From Dehalococcoidia bacterium (GTDB lineage: Bacteria > Chloroflexota > Dehalococcoidia > E44-bin15), in the NCBI GenBank assembly GCA_035528575.1, contig DATKYK010000041.1, positions 1 to 64,000 on the forward strand: a DNA stretch of 64,000 nt, given 5' to 3'. This document shows positions 36,289 to 53,102 of the stretch, piece after piece (position 1 is the first letter of the stretch; the number at the start of each line of letters is the position of its first letter). A model generated the notes under the pieces. It worked only from the letters and a program-made list of their open reading frames with translations, was not told the origin of the DNA and did no database searches. Position numbers and translations under genes: made by a program.

Positions 36289-37200
36289 ATGACTAAAAAG
36301 TATGTCTTCTCTTTTTTCCGCAAGTTCACACCACTACTTATTCTACTGTGCTTGCTGTCTCTGTTGCTTCCAGCCCCGGTTGCCGTGGCTGATGGTCCAG
36401 TCAATTTCCCTGACCCCTACCTTGAGGCTATCATTCGTGGGTTGATAGGAAAGCCTATACCGGAGGAAATTTTAGAATCTGACTGTGCTACGATTATTAC
36501 CCTTCCGGCCTCAACAAGTGGCATTACCGACCTCACGGGTCTGGAGTACTGCACGAACCTGGAGAAGCTGAACATTGCCTTGAACCAGATAAGCGACCTC
36601 TCTCCTCTCGCTAACCTCACCAGCCTTACATGGATCTGGGCCCAGGTGAACCAGATAAGTGACATCTCTCCTCTCTCTAACCTCATCAGCCTGGAGCATA
36701 TCGAACTTTACAATAACAGCATAAGCGATACCTCGGCTCTATCTAATCTCACCAACCTGAATTGGCTCTGGCTTCACGCGAACCAGATAAGCGACCTATC
36801 ACCACTCGTGGATAACGCAGGACTTTCAGGGGGGGATTGGGTTACCGTCTGTTACAATCCATTAGATGCGGATTCAGTCAACATAGACATACCTGCACTT
36901 CAGGGGAGAGGTGTGTACATATCATGCCCTGTTGCCACGGAAGATGGCGGCTGCTTCATCGCCACCGCGGCCTACGGCACATCGACCGCTGAGGAACTCA
37001 ATACCCTCAGAGCCTTCAGGGATGAAGTGCTGCTAGAAAATAGCCTCGGCTCCCAGTTAGTGGCTCTCTATTATGAGGTTAGCCCGCCGGTGGCGGACTT
37101 CATATCGGAGCATGAGGGGTTAAGGACTTTGGTCAGGGAGCTCTTGGTTGACCCCGTTGCCTGGTTAGTCGAAGCAACGGAGGCTATTTGGGGGGAATAG
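36289..37200 (+). CDS. Secreted LRR protein with C-terminal CFI-box domain
   Basis: A 303-residue exported protein: signal peptide (LLILLCLLSLLLPAPVAVA, ending near residue 34), VNFPDPYLEAIIRGLI cap, about five 22-residue LRRs (NQISDISPLSNLISL type), then at residue 222 CFIATAAYGTSTAEEL and an 82-residue C-terminal domain with LRAFRDEVLL, SPPVADFISEH and LRTLVRELLV. This domain is the CFI-box C-terminal module known from many secreted bacterial proteins; its role is unknown. The conserved Cys and the short hydrophobic segment suggest processing or membrane attachment, which is inference. Confidence 0.85.
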   Translation: MTKKYVFSFFRKFTPLLILLCLLSLLLPAPVAVADGPVNFPDPYLEAIIRGLIGKPIPEEILESDCATIITLPASTSGITDLTGLEYCTNLEKLNIALNQISDLSPLANLTSLTWIWAQVNQISDISPLSNLISLEHIELYNNSISDTSALSNLTNLNWLWLHANQISDLSPLVDNAGLSGGDWVTVCYNPLDADSVNIDIPALQGRGVYISCPVATEDGGCFIATAAYGTSTAEELNTLRAFRDEVLLENSLGSQLVALYYEVSPPVADFISEHEGLRTLVRELLVDPVAWLVEATEAIWGE

Positions 37201-37295
37201 GGTAGCTTCCCATTGAGCGTCCCGCATGAAACATATCCTCGTAGGGGGTTTTTTGGCTTAGTCCTTAAGCACAAAACCAATAACCAAAGGAGGGA

Positions 37296-38681
37296 GTGAT
37301 GACTAGAAAGAGTTGCTTCACTTTTTTGAATAGGTTGACTCTAGCAATTGTTCTGATAGGCTTGTTGGCGTTGCTAATTCCCGGCTCGGTCGCCGTGGCC
37401 GCCGATGAAGTTGACTTCCCAGACACTGTCCTTCGAGAGGCGATAAGGGATGCAATCGGCGGAGGAGACATCACCCAGGCCAAACTTGATCTGCTTACCA
37501 GCTTTTCGTACGGGGGTTCGCTTCTTCCTGACGTTACCGATCTTACCGGAATGGAGCACTGTACCAGCCTGACTACGCTCGGCCTCGAGGAGAACCAGAT
37601 AAGCGACATTTCTGCGCTATCAAGCCTCACCAGCCTGACTTCACTGTCGCTTCAGAACTACCCGTGGAGTGGGAACAACCAGATAAGCGACATCTCTCCT
37701 CTATCAAGCCTCACCAGCCTGACGTGGCTCCACCTAGATTACAACCTGATAAGCGACATCTCTACGCTATCAAGCCTCACCAGCCTGACTACGCTCGGCC
37801 TCGAGGGGAACCTGATAAGCGACATCTCTGCGCTATCAAGCCTCACCAGCCTGGAAAGCCTTGGCCTCATACTGAACCAGATAAGCGACATCTCTGCGCT
37901 ATCAAGCCTCACCGGCCTGGTGCATCTCGAACTTACTGGCAACCAAATAAGCGACTTCACGCCGTTATCCAGCCTCGCCAACTTGTCCACGCTTTATCTT
38001 GGTGCGAATCATATAAGCGACATCTCTGCGCTATCAAGCCTCACCAGCCTGACAGATCTCGCCCTAAGCATTAACGAGATAAGTGATATCTCTGCGCTGT
38101 CAAGCCTCACCAGCCTGACAGATCTCGACCTAACTATCAACCAGATAAGCGACATCTCTGCGCTGTCAAGCCTCACCAGCCTGACAGATCTCGGCCTAAG
38201 CTATAACCAGATAAGCGATATCTCTGCGCTATCAAGCCTCACCAGCCTGAATATTCTCCGCCTAATTGCCAACCAGATAAGTGACATTTCACCACTCGTA
38301 GCGAACTCAGGACTTTCAGATGGGGATGAGGTTTACCTTGTGGGCAATCCATTAAGTGCGGAGTCCGTCAACACACACATACCTGAACTTGAGGGGAGAG
38401 GTGTGATTGTGTGGTACTATAGTGGCGAAGGCTGCTTCATCGCCACCGCAGCCTACGGGACATCGACAGCCGAGGAAATAGACACTCTCAGGGCCTTCAG
38501 GGATGAAGTACTACTGGAAAGCACAGTGGGCTCTCAACTTGTGGAGTGGTATTACCAGACCAGCCCTCCGGTGGCGGACTTCATATCGGAGCATGAGCTG
38601 TTAAGGACTTTGGTCAGGGAGCTTGTGGTTGAGCCTGTTGCTTGGTTAGTCGAAGTCACGGGGACCCTCTGGCGAGAATAG
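37296..38681 (+). CDS. Secreted LRR protein with C-terminal CFI-box domain
   Basis: A 461-residue relative of the 36289 protein with about twelve LRR units of consensus NQISDISALSSLTSLTDLxL. The signal peptide covers residues 1-35. The CFI-box module starts at residue 380 (CFIATAAYGTSTAEEI) and is about 80 percent identical to that of 36289. The LRR part is encoded by 66-bp repeats. It differs from the minus-strand LRR proteins by having the CFI-box in place of a dockerin domain, so the same LRR scaffold is attached to two different C-terminal modules in this window. Confidence 0.86.
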   Translation: MMTRKSCFTFLNRLTLAIVLIGLLALLIPGSVAVAADEVDFPDTVLREAIRDAIGGGDITQAKLDLLTSFSYGGSLLPDVTDLTGMEHCTSLTTLGLEENQISDISALSSLTSLTSLSLQNYPWSGNNQISDISPLSSLTSLTWLHLDYNLISDISTLSSLTSLTTLGLEGNLISDISALSSLTSLESLGLILNQISDISALSSLTGLVHLELTGNQISDFTPLSSLANLSTLYLGANHISDISALSSLTSLTDLALSINEISDISALSSLTSLTDLDLTINQISDISALSSLTSLTDLGLSYNQISDISALSSLTSLNILRLIANQISDISPLVANSGLSDGDEVYLVGNPLSAESVNTHIPELEGRGVIVWYYSGEGCFIATAAYGTSTAEEIDTLRAFRDEVLLESTVGSQLVEWYYQTSPPVADFISEHELLRTLVRELVVEPVAWLVEVTGTLWRE

Positions 38682-38760
38682 GGCAGCTTCGCCCCAAAGG
38701 CGGTTTATAAAACTTCAAGCTAGCAGGGCACTTTGGGCCTGTTAGCTTCTTTTTTAGTGT

Positions 38761-38766
38761 TATAAT
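38761..38766 (+). promoter_or_regulatory. -10 element with conserved leader
   Basis: TATAAT 41 bases before the ATG at 38807, followed by AGCC-TAAAGAGCCCAC and GGCGGATTTGGGG. The same -10 and leader recur at 39539-39544 and, less exactly, at 44279-44284 before the 44329 gene. No good -35 is visible. An inverted repeat (AAGCTAGCAGG...CCTGTTAGCTT) precedes it at about 38717-38748. Confidence 0.55.
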
Positions 38767-38806
38767 AGCCTAAAGAGCCCACACAGGCGGATTTGGGGGG
38801 TAGAGA

Positions 38807-39460
38807 ATGAAAATCAAGGAGATTGCCGTAATATTGCTTCTGGGTATATTGCTTGTAACAGCCTGCACAAGTTCGTCCACACCGCCAGATACAGAGACGG
38901 TCACAGCCGATGTCCAAATTATCACCGAAAACTTGAACTGCAATGATATATCGCTAGGGCCTCTTAACTGCCAGTGCTTCCTAACGGGCACCGTCAGGAA
39001 TATTGGAGATGGAGATGCCACTTCGGTAGTGGTTAAGGCCGAGTTCTTCGATACTTATGGCACAAGGCTCGGTGATGAATCAGATGTAGCAGGTAGCACA
39101 GGCGATTTAAGCGTAGGAGAATCGGCCAGCTACTCTATGAGTTTCAAAGAGTCAGAATGTCCGGTTACCTACGCGGTGTGGGCAGAATGGAAAGAATCGG
39201 GGGATGAAGGCTGCTTCATCGCCACCGCAGCCTACGGCACATCGACCGCCGGGGAAATAGACACTCTCAGAGCTTTCAGAGATGAAGTGCTGCTACAAAA
39301 TAGCCTCGGCTCCCAGTTGGTGGCTTTCTATTACGAGGTTAGCCCGCCGGTGGCGGACTTCATATCGGAGCATGAGCCGTTGAGGACTTTGGTCAGGGAG
39401 CTCTTGGTTGAGCCTGTTGTTTGGGTGGTCGAAGCCACGGGGACTCCCTGGCAAGATTAG
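38807..39460 (+). CDS. Lipoprotein with CFI-box C-terminal domain (copy 1)
   Basis: A 217-residue lipoprotein: signal KIKEIAVILLLGILLVTAC (lipobox VTAC, Cys near residue 21), a beta-rich domain at residues about 35-130 that looks like a FxLYD/CARDB-type sandwich (ITENLNCNDISLG...GTVRNIGDGDATSVVVKAEFFD), and the CFI-box module from residue 136. The next gene is a tandem duplicate. The beta domain may bind protein or sugar; no partner is known. Confidence 0.82.
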   Translation: MKIKEIAVILLLGILLVTACTSSSTPPDTETVTADVQIITENLNCNDISLGPLNCQCFLTGTVRNIGDGDATSVVVKAEFFDTYGTRLGDESDVAGSTGDLSVGESASYSMSFKESECPVTYAVWAEWKESGDEGCFIATAAYGTSTAGEIDTLRAFRDEVLLQNSLGSQLVAFYYEVSPPVADFISEHEPLRTLVRELLVEPVVWVVEATGTPWQD

Positions 39461-39584
39461 GGCAGCTTCACCCCAAAGGCAGCTCATAAAACTTCAGGCT
39501 AGCAGGTCACTTTGGGCCTGTTAGCTTCTTTTTAGTGTTATAATAGCCTAAAGAGCCCACCTAGGCGGATTTGGGGCATAGACA

Positions 39585-40250
39585 ATGAAAATCAAGGAGA
39601 TTGCCGTAATATTGCCTCTGGGTATATTGCTTGTAATAGCCTGCACATGTCAGTCCACAGAACCAGAGCCAACGCCAACGCCAACACCAGAGCCGACCAT
39701 AGCCGGTGTCCAAATCATCACCGAAAACCTGAACTGCCATGAGATATCGCTAGAGCCTTTTAACTGCGAGTGCTACCTAACGGGCACAGTCAGAAATATT
39801 ATGGATGTAGACGCCCCGACGGTAGTGGTTAAGGCCACGTTCTTCAATGCTTACGGCACAAAGGTCCGTGATGAATCAGATATACCCGGCGATTTAAGCG
39901 CAGGAGAATCGGCCAGCTACTCTATTACGATCCGTGAGTCAGCATGTCCGAGCACCTACGAGGTATGGGCAGATTGGGAAGGATCGAATGAAGGTGAAGG
40001 CTGCTTCATCGCCACAGCAGCCTACGGGACATCGACCGCCGGGGAAATAGACACTCTCAGAGCTTTCAGAGATGAAGTGCTGCTACAAAATAGCCTCGGC
40101 TCCCCGTTGGTGGCTTTCTATTACGAGGTTAGCCCGCCAGTGGCGGACTTTATATCGGAGCATGAGCCGTTGAGGACTTTAGTCAGGGAGCTCTTGGTTG
40201 AGCCTGTTGTTTGGGTGGTCGAAGCCACGGGGACTCTCTGGCAAGATTAG
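39585..40250 (+). CDS. Lipoprotein with CFI-box C-terminal domain (copy 2)
   Basis: A 221-residue tandem duplicate of the 38807 product. Signal KIKEIAVILPLGILLVIAC, a short Thr-Pro linker not present in copy 1, the same beta domain (TVRNIMDVDAPTVVVKATFF) and the CFI-box module from residue 140, which is nearly identical in DNA to copy 1 while the middle domain has diverged more. This pattern suggests recent gene conversion of the 3' ends. Confidence 0.82.
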   Translation: MKIKEIAVILPLGILLVIACTCQSTEPEPTPTPTPEPTIAGVQIITENLNCHEISLEPFNCECYLTGTVRNIMDVDAPTVVVKATFFNAYGTKVRDESDIPGDLSAGESASYSITIRESACPSTYEVWADWEGSNEGEGCFIATAAYGTSTAGEIDTLRAFRDEVLLQNSLGSPLVAFYYEVSPPVADFISEHEPLRTLVRELLVEPVVWVVEATGTLWQD

Positions 40251-40807: not shown

Positions 40808-41887
40808 CTAGGTTGCGATGGAGATGGCTCCCCTGGGACATTGGAGAATGCATGCTTCACATCTCTCACAGCGTCCCGGGTATTTCATTATCACCCTCTT
40901 GTGCCAGCCCCTCTCAATGTCATAGACCCCCCGGGGGCAGACATCGTAGCATATACCACAGGCAGTGCAGTTAGCTTCATCGAGACTTATTTCCCCCCTT
41001 TTTATTCTGGCCCGCTCCCCAAAGTTTATCGGCCCAATTTGCCTTATGCCTATTCTATCTAGCAGGGGGTCAAGGTCACTCTTATATAACGGGGTTACCC
41101 CGCTAAAATCGGTGCCAATTATTATGACAAGCCCCATGGCCATAAAGAACAGGTCGAGGATATACCACGATTGCCCCGCACCGAGGGAAACATATACTAG
41201 AAGCCCTGCTGCTATTAGCCCCTCCAGGAAAAGCAATTTATGCCACCCTACTCTACCCGGAATGAGAGGATAGAAGCCGTACATCAGGAAGAAAAGTCCC
41301 CAGCTCAACACCACAAACTCGACAAGCCAGGACGTGCCGAAGATAGCCAGGATTACCAGGATGAGGAGAAACATGGAGAAGAAGACTCCTATGCCTGCGT
41401 CCAGTCGGTCGATAAGGGGCCACTTGACGCGGCGCATGTCATCGGTCTTCTTGAAGCTATTGGTCACGTATCCAGGTATGTCCCTGGCATACACCGGGCC
41501 AAACTTGCAGCGCCAGCCCGTCTCCTTCCTCACCAGACGAGTATCGATACCTGGGGCAGCGAGCTGAGGCAGTATCAGTGTTCGGTTGGTTACCCTCTCG
41601 CCGATTCTCGACGTTCTAACCACCGAGATCACCGAATGGGCAGTGAATTTGCCGCCCTTGGCGGCACACCAGACATTTATGCCGCCTGTTGGGGCTACCA
41701 ACAAATAACAGTCCAAGTACCTCAGGTGCCTTGTAAGCCTTTTCACAGTGAGGTCGAAATTGGCGGTGACGAAAACGGGGCTCCTCTCATCGGGATTACC
41801 TAAAACCCTCAGTCCTGGCTCCACGGAAAGGGGGAATAAGCGGAACAGGGTTGCTATGGCTGTTCTGATGGCCTGCTTAGCTCCCAT
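40808..41887 (-). CDS. HgcAB-like fusion protein: corrinoid-binding domain, membrane helices, ferredoxin
   Basis: A 359-residue fusion. Residues about 20-140 resemble the corrinoid domain of mercury methylation protein HgcA: VFVTANFDLTVKRL, LDCYLLV, the cap-helix motif NVWCAAKGGK (Cys74), LPQLAAPGI and FGPVYARDIPGY. HgcA itself has N(V/I)WCA(A/G)GK, so the motif here is shifted by one residue after CAA. Residues about 165-270 hold four membrane helices. Residues about 308-355 are a two-[4Fe-4S] ferredoxin domain like HgcB (CTACGICYDVCP and CERCEACILQCP), but without the C-terminal Cys pair of HgcB. Fused HgcAB-like proteins are known and are not established mercury methylators. The methyl donor and acceptor are unknown. 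The methyltransferase gene lies five bases upstream. Confidence 0.88.
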   Translation of the reverse strand: MGAKQAIRTAIATLFRLFPLSVEPGLRVLGNPDERSPVFVTANFDLTVKRLTRHLRYLDCYLLVAPTGGINVWCAAKGGKFTAHSVISVVRTSRIGERVTNRTLILPQLAAPGIDTRLVRKETGWRCKFGPVYARDIPGYVTNSFKKTDDMRRVKWPLIDRLDAGIGVFFSMFLLILVILAIFGTSWLVEFVVLSWGLFFLMYGFYPLIPGRVGWHKLLFLEGLIAAGLLVYVSLGAGQSWYILDLFFMAMGLVIIIGTDFSGVTPLYKSDLDPLLDRIGIRQIGPINFGERARIKRGEISLDEANCTACGICYDVCPRGVYDIERGWHKRVIMKYPGRCERCEACILQCPRGAISIAT

Positions 41888-41892
41888 ATCGG

Positions 41893-42570
41893 CTAACTCT
41901 TCCTAGCCACATAGAGCCCAAAGGAATCAAGAAAGCTTCTTTTTTGGTAAATGATTTCGAATCCACTGTCGGTCAGAGCATCCTCGATGCCCTTCAATGC
42001 TTTGGTTGACGCCTGTATCAGGATATAGGTTATTACCACTAGTGGGACGCGAACCAATAAATGCAAAATGCGCTTCCACGGCGAATTTGACCTAACTTCA
42101 TCGGCGATGATGAGGAGCCCGCCGGGTCTCAGGATTCTATTTGCTTCCCGCAGTACGTACTTCTGTTCATCAGGATAGAACTCACTGAATACCAGAGTGC
42201 TCACGATCTTATCGAAGGTTCCATCACTAAAGTTGTTATCCATTTCAGTGGCAGCCATTTCTCGAAATTGAATTTTGTCGGTCAAATTTCGCTCACCCGC
42301 TTTTCTTATCGCAATAGCCAGCATCCGATACGAAGTGTCAAATCCGACTACCGATGCGCCTTTCTCGGCACAGAGTATTGCCATCGTCCCGGTACCACAA
42401 CCTATTTCAAGGACTTCGTCGCCGGCTGTTATATAGCTTTCAACGATATCCCGCTGAACCCTGTTACTGTGCCCTAACGATAGCAGATTGATACCGGTGT
42501 CGTAGCGCTGCGGTGACGACTCAAGGACTTTCATAAATGCATAGCTTACCATTATTGTCTCCGAGCCCAT
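41893..42570 (-). CDS. SAM-dependent methyltransferase (CpaM-like, paired with HgcAB-like protein)
   Basis: A 225-residue class I methyltransferase. The ATG at 42570 is preferred (AGGGAAG upstream) over one at 42600. Motif I is VLEIGCGTGTMAILCAEKGASVVGFD, with VSTLVFSEFYPDEQ and LRPGGLLIIADEV following. The C-terminal third contains an unusual hydrophobic stretch (LLVRVPLVVITYILI) before a GFEI end, which could sit against the membrane next to its partner. It is the first gene of a two-gene operon with the HgcAB-like fusion. Corrinoid-protein-associated methyltransferases of this kind have been noted beside such fusions; transfer of a methyl group to or from the corrinoid is the natural hypothesis. 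Confidence 0.85.
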   Translation of the reverse strand: MGSETIMVSYAFMKVLESSPQRYDTGINLLSLGHSNRVQRDIVESYITAGDEVLEIGCGTGTMAILCAEKGASVVGFDTSYRMLAIAIRKAGERNLTDKIQFREMAATEMDNNFSDGTFDKIVSTLVFSEFYPDEQKYVLREANRILRPGGLLIIADEVRSNSPWKRILHLLVRVPLVVITYILIQASTKALKGIEDALTDSGFEIIYQKRSFLDSFGLYVARKS

Positions 42571-42958
42571 TATAGCAACTTCCCTGAGGCAAGGTAACAT
42601 CTATGTACTCATCCAATACATTAGCGATACCTCACCGTTCGCCTCCTCTGGTTGTCATCTAGAGTGAAGCTAATCGATCTCACCTTTTCCCACTCACCCG
42701 CCCCGAGATGTATTTCTGCCCCGATATAACCGGAGGTCTCTACCTTATAGCTCCTTCTTACTTAATAAAACCTATGGTGTAGTATGTTCACAACAGACCA
42801 AACGGCCGCTTGTGAAGTCAGTAGATTGATCTCAAAAGGCCCGGTATGCTACAGTTGTTATCATCAGGAATTCTAGCGTTATTCACGATGGCGCAACCCT
42901 GGACTATTAGGGCATAGTGTGGACACCGCAAAATGCGGAGAGAAATGGAGGATGTAAA
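42571..42958. other. Divergent intergenic region
   Basis: Positions about 42679-42722 match, on the minus strand, the dispersed repeat at 59570-59600 (CACCCGCCCCGAGATGTATTTCTGCCCCGA). No gene is supported. Promoters for the two divergent methyltransferase genes should lie here. Confidence 0.5.
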
Positions 42959-43951
42959 GTGAACTTGTTTGATGCTGATAATTTAGAGGGAGCAGCGGCG
43001 CTACTGGAACTCAACTGGCAATTTCGGGCATCCCGAGTTTTGATGGCAGCTCATCAGCTTGGCATCTTTGAAGCACTTCGGGAACCCAAAAAGCCCATGG
43101 AGGTGGCAGAACAGTGCGGAACGGACGTGGCTATGACCGAGAAGTTGCTCATCGCTTGCTGCGCCCTTGGTGTTGCGGGGCGGGATAACGATCATTTCGT
43201 GCTGACGCAGTTGGCAGTGGATACACTGTTGCCCGAAAGCCTGCGCTATCTCGGCGGTGTTCTCGATCACAACGAAACACTGTGGTGGGCCAGTACGGGG
43301 CTTCCCGATATAATACGCACGGGGGATCGCGGAGCAGCACCAAAGCCACCTGAAGCTTTCATATCCCGCTGGCACGAGCACTGGATCTGGGCCATGCACG
43401 GCTATGCTGCCAATGGTGTAGGACAGTGGGTAGCGAGACAATTAGACTTAAGTGACCGAAGTTTATTGCTGGATGTCGGTGGTGGTCCGGGTACGTATAG
43501 CATCGCCCTGTGCCAACGCTTCCCCAAGCTAAGGGCTGTCGTATGGGATTTGTCACAAACCATTGCCATTGCCCAGCAGGTGATTGAGCGGTTCCATATG
43601 GAAGACCGTATCGCCGTGAAGGAAGGTGACTGGAATCGTGACGAGTTCGGCACTGGATATGATTGTCTACTAATGTCCAACACCATGCATGGACCAGGCT
43701 TTCAAGCAGAGGAAAGGCTGAATCAGGGAATGCGTGCGCTGGTAAAAGGCGGAATGCTCATCGTAAATGACTTCTTGTTAGACAATGATAAAAGCGGGCC
43801 TTTACCTGCGGCGCTCTTCAACTTGATGATCGGTGCCTATACTGTGCATGAGCTGATTGCTGTCATTCGCTCGGTCGGCTTTGTGGACGTGTCTCTTATT
43901 GCCTCCAACGCCCAGAGAGGGAGCGGTATTGTCACAGCAATCCGTCCGTAA
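42959..43951 (+). CDS. O-methyltransferase (acetylserotonin/hydroxyneurosporene type)
   Basis: A 330-residue protein. The GTG at 42959 follows GGAGGA by six bases and is preferred over the GTG at 42917. The N-terminal winged-helix dimerisation domain (LLELNWQFRASRVLMAAHQLGIFEAL) precedes a Rossmann methyltransferase with LLLDVGGGPGTYSIALCQRFP (SAM binding), VVWDLSQTI and LVKGGMLIVNDFLLD. The usual catalytic His region reads SNTMHGPG. The family O-methylates phenolics, carotenoids and cofactors. Its place beside the HgcAB-like operon may be chance. Confidence 0.86.
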   Translation: MNLFDADNLEGAAALLELNWQFRASRVLMAAHQLGIFEALREPKKPMEVAEQCGTDVAMTEKLLIACCALGVAGRDNDHFVLTQLAVDTLLPESLRYLGGVLDHNETLWWASTGLPDIIRTGDRGAAPKPPEAFISRWHEHWIWAMHGYAANGVGQWVARQLDLSDRSLLLDVGGGPGTYSIALCQRFPKLRAVVWDLSQTIAIAQQVIERFHMEDRIAVKEGDWNRDEFGTGYDCLLMSNTMHGPGFQAEERLNQGMRALVKGGMLIVNDFLLDNDKSGPLPAALFNLMIGAYTVHELIAVIRSVGFVDVSLIASNAQRGSGIVTAIRP

Positions 43952-47814: not shown

Positions 47815-48645
47815 CTAACTATGAAACCAGCCTTTCAACCTCCCCGGAGACCGTCTCTTCAGCCACCACACCAGGGCAACGGAAAACAGCGCCAGACCGC
47901 CGAAAGTGGCCATCTTCTGTACCAGTGTGGTATTAACCGCCACCCTGCTGAGAGCAACAGCGGGCCACAACATACCTCTCACTACCGGTTTCGAACCGGG
48001 ATGGTTATCGATGAACCGAGCTACCGGCGGGCTGAGCCTGTAGTAGGCGGATACCAGACCTCTGCCGACGGGGGTGGTCATCAGGTAACTATCGCGGAAC
48101 TGGCGTAGGATATCAACATTGCTGTCCATATAAGAACCGTAGGCAGCGGTAGCAATGAAGCACCAGCCATCATCGTCTGGAGGTTCAATAACCTCAACCG
48201 AAGAGCAATGCCTTATGGCTACATATATCGTACTTTTGCCGGTGCAGTTACCTCTAACTACTGCATAATCTCCTTCCTCTATCGGTATCAGGTTATCTAC
48301 GTCATCCTCATCAAAGTAACACCAAACATCGGTAAAAACATCGCTTAATAATCCACAATCCAGTGTAAGGTAGGGCTCCTCACTAAGCACACCTCTACCT
48401 ATTACACCTATCTTCCCGGATACATCAAGAATATTCCCTTTATATTCGGCATCTGCTTGAAAACTATTTTTGTCATAATCGTCGCACAGTTGATCCGCGG
48501 TTACGCATATCACCCCCGGTTCACACGTTGGAGTTGGCGTAGGCTCAGCTGCTGGCTCTTCGCCTGCTGTAAAAAAGATCCAGCTGGCAACGCCGGCCGC
48601 TATCAGAACCACAACAATAATCAATATCAACAATACCCTTCTCAT
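47815..48645 (-). CDS. Membrane protein with OB-fold (tRNA_anti-like) and CFI-box domain
   Basis: A 276-residue protein. Residues 1-30 are a hydrophobic anchor or signal, then a short Thr-Pro linker. Residues about 45-150 match the tRNA_anti-like OB fold (TADQLCDDYDKNSFQADAEYKG...VSGKIGVIG). A CFI-box module starts at residue 162 (CFIATAAYGSYMDSN). Unlike the four other copies, this one continues into a final membrane helix (about residues 248-262) and a basic end. It therefore links the CFI-box to an explicit C-terminal anchor. Function unknown. Confidence 0.82.
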   Translation of the reverse strand: MRRVLLILIIVVVLIAAGVASWIFFTAGEEPAAEPTPTPTCEPGVICVTADQLCDDYDKNSFQADAEYKGNILDVSGKIGVIGRGVLSEEPYLTLDCGLLSDVFTDVWCYFDEDDVDNLIPIEEGDYAVVRGNCTGKSTIYVAIRHCSSVEVIEPPDDDGWCFIATAAYGSYMDSNVDILRQFRDSYLMTTPVGRGLVSAYYRLSPPVARFIDNHPGSKPVVRGMLWPAVALSRVAVNTTLVQKMATFGGLALFSVALVWWLKRRSPGRLKGWFHS

Positions 48646-49103: not shown

Positions 49104-50954
49104 TCAACGGGGCTCCTTTTGTCCTATGTATGTTGCGTCGATGAAAGTCTTTGTAAAATTAGGGGCATTTGTAAGTTCGAGATACTGGACTCGATCAGCT
49201 ATCCTTTGCGCCTCGGCCCGCTGATGCCGTGAGATCAGTGCCAGCTTTGCTCCCATGCCAGCGGCATTTCCTACCTGCCGAAAGCGGCTCCGCGGTAACG
49301 GCGGCAACATCCCGATCGCCGTTGCGCTATCCACATCGATGTAGCTACCGAAAGCCCCGGCAATCACTACCTGTTCAATCTCCGCTGCGGTGTGTCCCGT
49401 CGCCTCCAATAGCACCTGAATACCGGTATTTATAGCTCCCTTGGCTAGTTGCAGCTCGCGTACATCATGCTGTGTGATAGTTATCGCCGGCCGCCCCTCT
49501 TGCCCGGCCTGCCCTCCCCATTCCGCCATCTCACCCTCGCTTACCAGCACGAACTCGCGCTGCCCCTTTACCCCACGCACCCGCGGGTGATCGCCCATCC
49601 TCCCACCGTGATCCAGCACACCGGCCAGGTGAAGCTGTGCTATAGCATCGAGGATTCCCGAGCCGCAAATACCTGCTGGCGGCGCGCCACCGATGGTCTG
49701 ATATTCGACCGTGTCGTCTACCAGCCGCAGCCGCTCTATTGCCCCGGGTGCCGCCCTCATGCCGTCCTTGATATGCGCCCCTTCGAAAGCGGGGCCCGAG
49801 GCGCAGGAGACACTGGCTATCTCGCCACCGCTTATTATCGCCACCTCGGTGTTGGTACCTATGTCCAGCGCCAGCGTGACCCCACCAGCCTGCCACACAC
49901 CCGTAGCCAGCAACATGGCAACATGGTCGGCACCCACAAAGCCAGCAATGTTGGGCAACAGGTGCACGTATGCTCCGGGACTAGCACGTATTCCAAGCTC
50001 ACGAGCCTTAATGTCCAGGGCATCGCATACCGCCGGCAGGAAAGGTGAGAGTGCCAGTTGCGCCACCGGCAGGCGCAGCAGCAGGTGGTGCATGGCGGTG
50101 TTGCCCACCACCACCATTTCGAGTATTTCCTCCGGTTCGGCCTCGACCTCGGCACAGAGGTCAACCATCATCTGGTTGATCGCCTTTACAACCGCCCTCT
50201 GCAGCTTCGCCCCTGTGGATGGAGACTCCCTGACACGGGCGATTCGGCTGATGACATCCTCGCCGGAGGAAATCTGAGGGTTCATAATGCCATGCGCAGC
50301 AAGCGTCTTTCCGCTATCTAGATCGATCAGGTAACCCGCTATCTTGGTGGTGCCGATATCTACCGCCAGCCCCAATTGGCGGCCGTGCCAGGAACTTACG
50401 GCGATAACCTCGTCACCCCGCACCGAAGCCTGAGCCTGCCACTTCCCTGACCTCAGCTGGGGCGACAGGGTGCGAAGCGCCTCGAGATCGATGGTACCAC
50501 AGCGAACCTGATGCTGCCGGTAGAGCGTCTCCAGAAGCCGCCTGGCATCGGCGCGCAGGTCATCCATTGAGGGTGGTGTTAACTCCAGGCGGTAGGCGCG
50601 AACCGGCGGCTCCGGGCTAACCGCAACCTCCCAGCCTTCCACCTGGGTGCGCTGGGGTGCTGTGAGGGACTCCGTCGGCACTCCCAGCTTGCAATCGCCA
50701 AGCGGGTAGGTCTGGCAGGCAAGGCGATAGCCGCTTTCAAGTTCCTGAGAAGAGAGGTAGCTTTTCTCATTCTCGGTTGGTGGCGATACACTCCCACTAA
50801 TCACTTGCACTTTGCAGCGGTGGCAGGTACCCTTGCCCCCGCAGAGGCTGACCAGGTCCACCCCCAGTCTCTGCGCCGCCTCCAGCAGCGATCGGCCGGC
50901 GGGGCATTCGCCGCGCCGGCCTACGGGCTCAAAATCAATCCTATACAATTTCAA
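49104..50954 (-). CDS. Corrinoid-protein reductive activase (RACo/RamA-type, DUF4445)
   Basis: A 616-residue protein. Residues 1-90 are a plant-type [2Fe-2S] ferredoxin domain: CGGKGTCHRCKV near residues 38-49 and a fourth Cys in YRLACQ. The remainder is the ASKHA ATPase of the DUF4445 family: GLAVDIGTTKIAGYLID, VVVGNTAMHHLLLRLP, LALDIGTNTEVAI and VIAGAFGSYIDVDSA. Such proteins use ATP to reduce an oxidised Co(II) corrinoid back to Co(I). Its start overlaps the stop of the UroD-type methyltransferase by four bases, so it serves this operon. Confidence 0.92.
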   Translation of the reverse strand: MKLYRIDFEPVGRRGECPAGRSLLEAAQRLGVDLVSLCGGKGTCHRCKVQVISGSVSPPTENEKSYLSSQELESGYRLACQTYPLGDCKLGVPTESLTAPQRTQVEGWEVAVSPEPPVRAYRLELTPPSMDDLRADARRLLETLYRQHQVRCGTIDLEALRTLSPQLRSGKWQAQASVRGDEVIAVSSWHGRQLGLAVDIGTTKIAGYLIDLDSGKTLAAHGIMNPQISSGEDVISRIARVRESPSTGAKLQRAVVKAINQMMVDLCAEVEAEPEEILEMVVVGNTAMHHLLLRLPVAQLALSPFLPAVCDALDIKARELGIRASPGAYVHLLPNIAGFVGADHVAMLLATGVWQAGGVTLALDIGTNTEVAIISGGEIASVSCASGPAFEGAHIKDGMRAAPGAIERLRLVDDTVEYQTIGGAPPAGICGSGILDAIAQLHLAGVLDHGGRMGDHPRVRGVKGQREFVLVSEGEMAEWGGQAGQEGRPAITITQHDVRELQLAKGAINTGIQVLLEATGHTAAEIEQVVIAGAFGSYIDVDSATAIGMLPPLPRSRFRQVGNAAGMGAKLALISRHQRAEAQRIADRVQYLELTNAPNFTKTFIDATYIGQKEPR

Positions 50955-52111
50955 CTTCTAGAAAGCTCGTAGGTCTTGCCCGTCTGGATCATCGCCCTAA
51001 GATTCTCCGCTTTAATAGCGGCGGGAAGCTCGCATCCAGAGGACAGGAAGAACCCACCGTCTCCGCCAACCTCATCGATTAGCTTTTTACAGTAAGCCTC
51101 CACCTCTTCCGGCTTCCCCAGGGACAGCAGCGTGGGGTGCACGTCTCCGGAGAGGCAGGCGTGGTTGCGGAGCACCTCTTTAGCGGCAAAGATGTCGGTG
51201 GTGCCATCGAGCGCCAGCACCACCGAGCCCCGGGGCAACTGCTTGAAGTAGGGGATATTCCTGTCCCAGCTCGTATCCAGGTGGAACCAGGTGACGATCC
51301 CCTCGGACCACAGGGCGTCCACGATCTCCTGAGTATAGGGCCACCAGAAACGCTCGAAGATCCTCGGCGGGTAGAAGTAGCCCCCGGCGCGCTCCTCGAC
51401 GACGAGCGTGATCTTGCTATTGAACATCTTACAGCCGTTGATCGTGGCCTCGATGAACTCGCGGGTCATTGTCTTCAAAGCCTTCTCAATAATTTCGGGG
51501 TTGTAGTACAGGTCCTCGGTGAATTTTATCATGGAGCGGCCGAGCGAGAGCCTGAAGAAGGGGTGGCAGGTGAAAGGGGAGGGGGGATACATGGTAACAA
51601 CCCCCCGTTTCGCCCATTCATCCATGCCCTTGAAGAAGCTGGGAATTATCTCATTCAGTGTCTGGTTCAGCTCCGCTGGCGTGATGTCCAAGACGCGGAA
51701 TACGAGGTCCTCGGTCATGAACTTCACCCAGCCTATCTCCGCGATGGTGTCGTAGTCCTCCGGCTTCAGCACCTCCTCCTCACATGCCTGGTAAGCGTAG
51801 TCATCGGGCAATTCCATGCCGGGATAGGCCAGCCTGAGCCCGAGGGCCAGCGTCATTACCGTTTTTATCATCATTATCGACTTCCCGGTAAGGCTGCCCA
51901 GGTCCAGGTCCCACCCCCCAACATCATCAAACACCTTGTATATGGCATCGAGCGCTTTCTCCTCATCCGAGTAGAACTCCGCTGCGGCCATACCGGAGAT
52001 CCGGGCGAATGGTGCTGCGGTTGCCAGGATAGCGATCGGGACGCGGTCCGGCTTCTCCAGTCGGATTGCCGCCTGCACTCTTTCCTGGGAGGTCATCGTT
52101 TCGCTGGCCAT
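50951..52111 (-). CDS. Uroporphyrinogen decarboxylase-family methyltransferase (MtaA/MtbA-like)
   Basis: A 386-residue UroD-fold protein: MTSQERVQAAIRLEKPDRVPI start, PPSPFTCHPFFRLSLGRS, and C-terminal ACLSGDVHPTLLSLG and SSGCELP. In the coenzyme M methyltransferases, zinc is held by a His-x-Cys and a later Cys. Here the first site reads FHLDTSW (His-x-Asp) near residue 278, while the later Cys is kept. It may thus bind zinc differently. It would exchange a methyl group between the corrinoid protein encoded just upstream and an unknown donor or acceptor such as a methylated amine, phenyl ether or folate. Confidence 0.88.
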   Translation of the reverse strand: MASETMTSQERVQAAIRLEKPDRVPIAILATAAPFARISGMAAAEFYSDEEKALDAIYKVFDDVGGWDLDLGSLTGKSIMMIKTVMTLALGLRLAYPGMELPDDYAYQACEEEVLKPEDYDTIAEIGWVKFMTEDLVFRVLDITPAELNQTLNEIIPSFFKGMDEWAKRGVVTMYPPSPFTCHPFFRLSLGRSMIKFTEDLYYNPEIIEKALKTMTREFIEATINGCKMFNSKITLVVEERAGGYFYPPRIFERFWWPYTQEIVDALWSEGIVTWFHLDTSWDRNIPYFKQLPRGSVVLALDGTTDIFAAKEVLRNHACLSGDVHPTLLSLGKPEEVEAYCKKLIDEVGGDGGFFLSSGCELPAAIKAENLRAMIQTGKTYELSRS

Positions 52112-52113
52112 CT

Positions 52114-52746
52114 CTATCCCCCTCTCATCACATCGATGCAGTAGGCCACGCCCTCTGTCGCATCTGTGGTCTGGAAGTCAGCCCCCACGTGGTCTTTGAC
52201 CACGGAGGTGGTTACGCCTCCCCCGATCATGAGCTTGAACTGCTCCCTGAGGCCGGCTTCGTGCAACATTTCGGCCGCCTGCTTCATGCTATCGAAGGAA
52301 GTGGTGATCAGCGCCGAGAAGCCGACGAAATCGGGGGCGGTTTCCCTGACCTTCTCCACTACGAGGCCCGGGGCCACATCCACCCCCAGGTCATGCACCT
52401 CGAAGCCCTGGGCCTTGAGCATGATGGCAAGGATGTTCTTACCCAGGTCATGGATGTCTCCTTTCATTGTAGCCAGCACCACGCTGCCCAGGGGCTTGGA
52501 GGGGCGCACCCCGGCCAGGTAAGGCTCGAGGATGGCCATCGCCCCCTTAAAAATCTCGCCGGACAGCATCAGCTCGGCCAGGAAGTACTCGCCCTTCTGG
52601 AAACGCTCGCCCACGATGGCCATGCCCCGTCGGCACTCCTCGAGGATCTGGACCGGGCTCTCGCCTCTCTCCGCCCTGCTTTTTACCTCCTCCGCGACCC
52701 TGTCCCTCTCCAACTCTACGAGCGCCATGCTCAGTTCTTCTGACAT
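52114..52746 (-). CDS. Corrinoid (B12-binding) methyltransferase protein
   Basis: A 210-residue protein. The ATG at 52746 (MSEELSMALVELERD) follows GGAAGGGGG. It has the helical cap domain (residues about 1-90) and the B12-binding Rossmann domain with GDIHDLGKNILAIMLKAQGFEVHDLGVDV, containing the DxHxxG cobalt-ligating His, plus VGFSALITTSFDSM and LMIGGGVTT. It carries the methyl group between the two half-reactions. It is the first gene of the operon, two bases upstream of the UroD-type methyltransferase. Confidence 0.92.
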   Translation of the reverse strand: MSEELSMALVELERDRVAEEVKSRAERGESPVQILEECRRGMAIVGERFQKGEYFLAELMLSGEIFKGAMAILEPYLAGVRPSKPLGSVVLATMKGDIHDLGKNILAIMLKAQGFEVHDLGVDVAPGLVVEKVRETAPDFVGFSALITTSFDSMKQAAEMLHEAGLREQFKLMIGGGVTTSVVKDHVGADFQTTDATEGVAYCIDVMRGG

Positions 52747-53102
52747 CCCATACCCCCTTCCGCGAGGATTATATGCTACCAGCAGCCCGATGGTCAATGC
52801 AGCATACCCATCCATCGTACTGGTTATATACCTGTAACCGCGGCCCCGGTTTATACCCGCGCATGGGCCTGGGGGTATGAAGCAATCACAGAGGCGGTGT
52901 ATGGGCAGGCATTTAAACTATCATTGCTAGGAGCGGGGAGAGGTGGCAATCTCCTAAATAGCATGATTTAGATTATGTAACGCGGGGATTACCACGCTGC
53001 GCTGGCAATGACAGGGGAGGTCTGCTACGGCTCTTAATAAAGTTATGCCACGCTACCAACTGACGAAATTGGGAACAGGAAGCCCAACACAACCATTAAC
53101 CA
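52747..53102. other. Gene-free region upstream of the corrinoid operon
   Basis: Holds the promoter region of the corrinoid operon. No cobalamin riboswitch consensus and no member of the hairpin family was seen by eye, and no gene is supported. Confidence 0.35.

Follow-up and report, generated by a model that had tools for sequence, protein, structure and literature searches.

Two adjacent genes on the minus strand of the window (the whole 64,000-nucleotide stretch of Dehalococcoidia DNA analysed here) probably encode one membrane-bound corrinoid methyltransferase module. Within it, the SAM-dependent methyltransferase CpaM would charge a corrinoid held by a fused HgcAB-like protein, and the methyl group would pass on to a small acceptor. 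Sequence support comes from the domains, a near-obligate CpaM partnership, natural gene fusions and the loss of mercury-handling cysteines. NCBIfam already names both proteins, so the pair as such is not new; the tightness of the pairing is.

The source genome is 2.3 Mb and 96% complete. With 93% identity at the locus, 'Dehalococcoidia bacterium isolate E29_bin15' is the closest named relative. The CpaM ORF comes first, with the HgcAB-like gene following it in tandem at the spacing given by the first-pass annotation (Table 1). Translation of CpaM may begin at an in-frame ATG at 42570, as that annotation had it; the conserved part begins near the ATG at 42552.

Table 1 Features of the CpaM/HgcAB-like gene pair and of a second corrinoid system in the window.
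Feature	Position	Strand	Evidence
HgcAB-like fusion protein, 359 aa	40808..41887	(-)	NF043039 395.9 bits (cut-off 285); AF2 pLDDT 92.3
Corrinoid-binding domain (CFeSP/HgcA type), residues 19-140	41468..41833	(-)	PF03599 69.9 bits; Foldseek to CFeSP large subunit
Cap motif N71-V-W-C74-A-A-K-G-G, predicted Co-ligating Cys74	41651..41677	(-)	C74 in 61/61 relatives; model helix 72-78
Four TM helices, residues 158-259	41111..41416	(-)	AF2 helices; hydropathy of relatives
HgcB-like double [4Fe-4S] domain, residues 302-357, without tail Cys	40817..40984	(-)	Fer4 family matches; tail survey; NF040864 below cut-off
CpaM, SAM-dependent class I methyltransferase, up to 235 aa	41893..42600	(-)	NF043040 287.5 bits (cut-off 180); sequence
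CpaM SAM-binding motif I E-I-G-C-G-T-G	42388..42408	(-)	G67, C68, G69, T70, G71 invariant in alignment
5-nt gap, CpaM stop to HgcAB-like start codon	41888..41892	(-)	sequence
B12-binding corrinoid protein	52114-52815	(-)	
MtaA/UroD-type methyltransferase	50951-52111	(-)	
AcsV/RACo-type reductive activator	49104-50954	(-)	

Both products exceed the cut-offs of their NCBIfam models, NF043039 (HgcAB-like fusion protein, matched over residues 8–356) and NF043040 (corrinoid protein-associated methyltransferase CpaM). Domain order and neighbour agree with those of the two families, making the window protein an ordinary member. Its N-terminal domain matches PF03599 (CdhD; cut-off 24.8 bits), which signifies domain homology only. 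Structure prediction with AlphaFold2, a check proposed by the first-pass annotation, gives a confident model (pTM 0.89), whose best Foldseek match is the published HgcAB model 9a0b. CFeSP large subunits come next (rmsd 1.5–2.0 Å over ~127 residues; E 2e-8 to 4c1n_G). Profile and fold searches thus both place the domain inside the CdhD/HgcA family. Long helices span residues 158–183, 185–204, 214–234 and 241–259 of the model, and the cluster cysteines lie at 307/310/313/317, a complete CxxCxxCxxxC motif, and at 340/343/346/350. No cysteine follows the last cluster motif; the protein therefore has neither the C-terminal Cys pair of HgcB nor an equivalent of its Cys73. The corrinoid domain with its invariant cap cysteine, the four membrane helices and the tail-less double-cluster domain all bear out the first-pass annotation.

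Canonical HgcA and HgcB share with this protein the corrinoid fold, cap cysteine, membrane domain, two-cluster ferredoxin and SAM as likely donor. They differ in being encoded by separate genes, in their NVWCAAGKG cap, in possessing Cys73 and tail cysteines in HgcB and in having no CpaM; the window type is fused, with four TM helices, an NVWCAAxGG cap, no tail Cys and a CpaM partner. The window protein falls short of both canonical profiles (NF040863 HgcA, 167 versus 275 bits; NF040864 HgcB, 41.6 versus 99 bits). Its cap, NVWCAAKGGK, keeps the Cys but does not fit N(V/I)WCA(A/G)GK. The first-pass annotation had drawn the same contrast; the difference from the canonical cap stands, but lies between NVWCAAGKG and the family's NVWCAAxGG rather than in the simple presence or absence of GK. 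In our tree the canonical HgcA sequences group in a single clade (SH-aLRT 100) that excludes every CpaM-linked protein. A CpaM–HgcA fusion, L101, branches between the two sets with no firm placement. Hydropathy counts four helices in 53 of 63 fused proteins against five in 21 of 29 canonical HgcA; most of the split CpaM–HgcA proteins likewise have an extra helix. With an even number, the fused ferredoxin and the corrinoid would stay on the same side of the membrane, so gene fusion together with helix loss would make topological sense.

Fused HgcAB proteins, with HgcA and HgcB in one chain as here, are known from Kosmotoga, Pyrococcus, Methanococcoides and an Atribacterium, as paralogues that root HgcAB trees (PMC7438021). 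Two carriers of fused hgcAB, Pyrococcus furiosus and Methanococcoides methylutens, made no MeHg (PMC5893877). The CFeSP large subunit has the same corrinoid domain fold (~30% identity across 128 residues), but lacks the membrane domain and the cap Cys, and uses methyl-THF with a MeTr partner.

In other genomes CpaM and the HgcAB-like protein are found together with very few exceptions; neither of the two refuting outcomes named by the first-pass annotation was therefore observed. Our named loci from the genome collection number 80, 66 of the window type and 14 canonical. At 60 of the 66, CpaM is either fused or encoded immediately upstream in the same orientation; this holds at none of the 14. 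Contig ends explain four of the six loci lacking an adjacent CpaM (L065, L069, L078 and L091, where the gene is cut or terminal), and three of those genomes hold CpaM on a different contig. The remaining two count against an obligate pairing: L086 has the corrinoid protein, but its whole genome, which may be incomplete, contains no CpaM; L066, whose corrinoid gene looks truncated, comes from a genome without CpaM. L086 counts as a real exception, and L066 possibly as another. A candidate for the reverse case, CpaM without the corrinoid protein (G244), was rejected; there CpaM runs into a ferredoxin frame, in what looks like a deletion or an assembly error.

Whole-phylum surveys agree. In the phylum to which locus L092 belongs (297 genomes), the HgcAB-like protein exceeds its cut-off in nine and CpaM is present in nine, and these are the identical nine; another 76 of the 297 have HgcA-type (canonical-type) matches below cut-off, and CpaM is present in 0 of 76. 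In the window's phylum (301 genomes), the CpaM-type corrinoid protein is present in five, each of which also has CpaM; a single canonical hgcAB genome has none, and in one other genome CpaM is damaged. Among the hosts are Dehalococcoidia, Anaerolineae, Bathyarchaeota, Heimdallarchaeota, Myxococcota, Desulfobacterales, Bdellovibrionales, Neomarinimicrobiota, Blastocatellia and the actinomycete Rhizocola hellebori. No plasmid-borne copy was found in 72,556 plasmids. Across 63 loci, distances in the CpaM and corrinoid-protein trees correlate with r = 0.67 (≤0.22 in 2000 permutations), and 24 of 60 bipartitions are common to both. Shared host ancestry may account for part of this agreement.

The partnership also appears as covalent fusion. 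Single-chain CpaM–HgcA–HgcB proteins occur at L010/L169 (646–651 aa), L059 and L062; in L169 both fused domains exceed their model cut-offs, and the L059 three-part fusion is predicted as one confident unit (pTM 0.89, pLDDT 91.5). A Chloroflexota clade (L071, L093, L094, L103, L106 and L034) instead has a CpaM–HgcA chain, the ferredoxin being encoded downstream by a small gene of its own. Fusion is thus seen at three separate places in the tree, namely in the Chloroflexota clade, at L059/L062 and at L169. By eye, L035 (~324–2176) carries a flavodoxin plus 4Fe-4S protein downstream of a CpaM–HgcA with a separate ferredoxin gene, as a possible electron donor.

A catalytic cycle can be proposed for the module. 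Electrons from the fused [4Fe-4S] clusters would reduce the corrinoid to Co(I), and CpaM would dock on the corrinoid domain and present SAM. Methyl transfer from SAM to cobalt would yield methyl-Co(III), with the cap Cys as lower ligand. The membrane-anchored corrinoid would then hand the methyl group to a small acceptor rather than to a conserved neighbouring protein. The direction of transfer, the Cys-on cobalt and the class of acceptor are what we infer here. The loading half-reaction has precedent in a homologue: canonical HgcAB forms methyl-Co directly from SAM, and needs low-potential electrons (PMC11588087). Most simply read, the SAM-to-cobalt step of canonical HgcAB would have been handed to CpaM, or be assisted by it. 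A membrane corrinoid system with SAM as methyl source, as the first-pass annotation proposed, remains the best reading, a reasonable proposal supported by the fusions and by co-inheritance. A text search of the literature returned no paper under the family name CpaM and no CpaM biochemistry.

The same precedent has another side. Canonical HgcAB takes the SAM methyl group without any separate methyltransferase, so CpaM could serve another step: the HgcAB-like protein would load itself, and CpaM would methylate the same acceptor elsewhere, or a first product in a two-step reaction. The relatives of CpaM fit such a role: in profile searches its neighbours are small-molecule methyltransferases, UbiE among them, and in fold searches they include Coq5 and PE N-methyltransferase. 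We consider this rather unlikely, as CpaM partners only the CpaM-linked proteins and never canonical HgcA, a distribution that fits a changed methyl-loading step. A two-step methylation of a metalloid also sits poorly with CpaM itself. SAM motif I and an acidic residue are invariant across aligned CpaM sequences, and the single conserved Cys lies in that motif; ArsM carries arsenite-binding cysteines. On these grounds CpaM was ruled out as an arsenite methyltransferase of the ArsM type.

Gene neighbourhoods offer no acceptor enzyme. In a Pfam scan of 98 neighbours, no candidate recurs widely beside the pair. The main recurrent families are TetR (10) and ArsR (3) regulators; Peptidase_S15 and radical-SAM genes appear three times each, mostly at closely related archaeal loci. 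The window's own neighbour, an O-methyltransferase (42917–43951), is absent from the recurrent clusters.

One subclade (L083, L086, L090 and L092; SH-aLRT 99) is distinct. Its members keep a Cys-rich tail, GxCSCPTC, near the HgcB Cys73 position (judged by eye), with an additional SCCGSTDC in L086. All four have the same Cys-containing ArsR directly upstream. In L083 (1–1245) this metalloregulator is fused in frame to CpaM as one 415-aa ORF, and in L092 two short ORFs sit in between. L092 also encodes a 161-aa CC-containing membrane protein that resembled MerT by eye; no Pfam or NCBIfam model matched it, and we discarded this candidate. The sister of the subclade is Rhizocola (support 86). There, the next gene downstream encodes a heavy-metal P-type ATPase (506 bits against a cut-off of 346), and a CmtR-like ArsR lies close by. 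The locus as a whole (L077, 7309–12438) sets CpaM and the HgcAB-like protein beside the ATPase, a DUF169 protein and CmtR-like regulators. Among 299 genomes of the order of Rhizocola, this is the sole carrier found. Taken together, the tail cysteines, the ArsR and the Rhizocola ATPase suggest a thiophilic metal or metalloid as acceptor in the ArsR-linked, Cys-tailed subclade. The window's group has neither the cysteines nor the regulators, and the metal reading does not transfer to it automatically.

Could the window protein nevertheless be a mercury methylase, a fused HgcAB variant acting on Hg(II)? Its fold and domain order are those of HgcAB, the cap Cys is present, and the ArsR-linked subclade keeps its tail cysteines. 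We hold this to be quite improbable. HgcB Cys73 and the tail cysteines are required for activity of the canonical enzyme (PMC7305189), and equivalents are missing from the window protein and from nearly all its relatives. The shortfall against both canonical profiles and the lack of MeHg from the two fused-hgcAB strains point the same way, as do genomes holding both systems. G353 and G354 (L101 and L045) combine the CpaM/HgcAB-like system with an HgcA that exceeds the canonical cut-off, and G685 and G933 have a second HgcA-type match below cut-off; the two systems are thus probably not redundant. For the window's group, then, Hg(II) is probably not the acceptor. The non-mercury acceptor put forward by the first-pass annotation is plausible there, with the metal-linked subclade as a qualification to any wider claim.

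The remaining alternatives carry very little weight. The pair might be a CFeSP-like side branch of the Wood–Ljungdahl pathway, exchanging methyl groups with methyl-tetrahydrofolate or acetyl-CoA synthase and leaving CpaM a regulatory or minor role. The homology of the corrinoid domain to CFeSP would fit, as would CdhD-type genes on another contig of the window's genome; yet CFeSP has no membrane domain or cap Cys, the system extends to the actinomycete Rhizocola and to Bdellovibrionales, and no Wood–Ljungdahl gene recurs in the scan of 98 neighbours, so this is highly improbable. Equally doubtful is an accessory role in which CpaM, instead of donating methyl groups in catalysis, would mature or modify the corrinoid protein, say through methylation of the cofactor or of a residue. 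Obligate partnership and fusion to the client would suit a maturation factor too, but such a factor has no need of 1:1 covalent fusion, which is seen in three parts of the tree.

Other features of the window are recorded here in their own right. A separate corrinoid system of ordinary type, unrelated to the pair, occupies 49104–52815 on the minus strand. Systems of the RamA/AcsV type resemble the CpaM module in combining a corrinoid protein, a methyltransferase and reductive activation, and differ in corrinoid fold, in methyltransferase and in using a RACo-type activator. Four tandem genes at 36289–40250 (+) and one at 47815–48645 (−) have a C-terminal segment of the CFI-box-CTERM type in common (NF041770 at 92–98 bits in the three tested), behind differing front parts with leucine-rich repeats or of FxLYD type. 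Between 10367 and 27021, CoA-transferases, enoyl-CoA hydratases and thiolase-like proteins cluster (by eye), probably for acyl-CoA metabolism.

Fused HgcAB proteins serve as the outgroup of mercury-methylation trees and are treated as non-methylating paralogues. Tentatively, we suggest that those linked to CpaM may instead form a separate, widespread class, in which a dedicated SAM methyltransferase charges a membrane corrinoid for an acceptor other than mercury, a metal or metalloid in the subclade with ArsR and tail cysteines. The almost invariable pairing with CpaM points to a simple two-protein reaction that is open to test. In environmental surveys, these genes can be told from those of true methylators by sequence: a CpaM neighbour, the NVWCAAxGG cap and the absence of tail Cys. 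Should a metal or metalloid prove to be the acceptor, a cobalamin route would be added to known metal methylation, with a bearing on what HgcAB evolved for.
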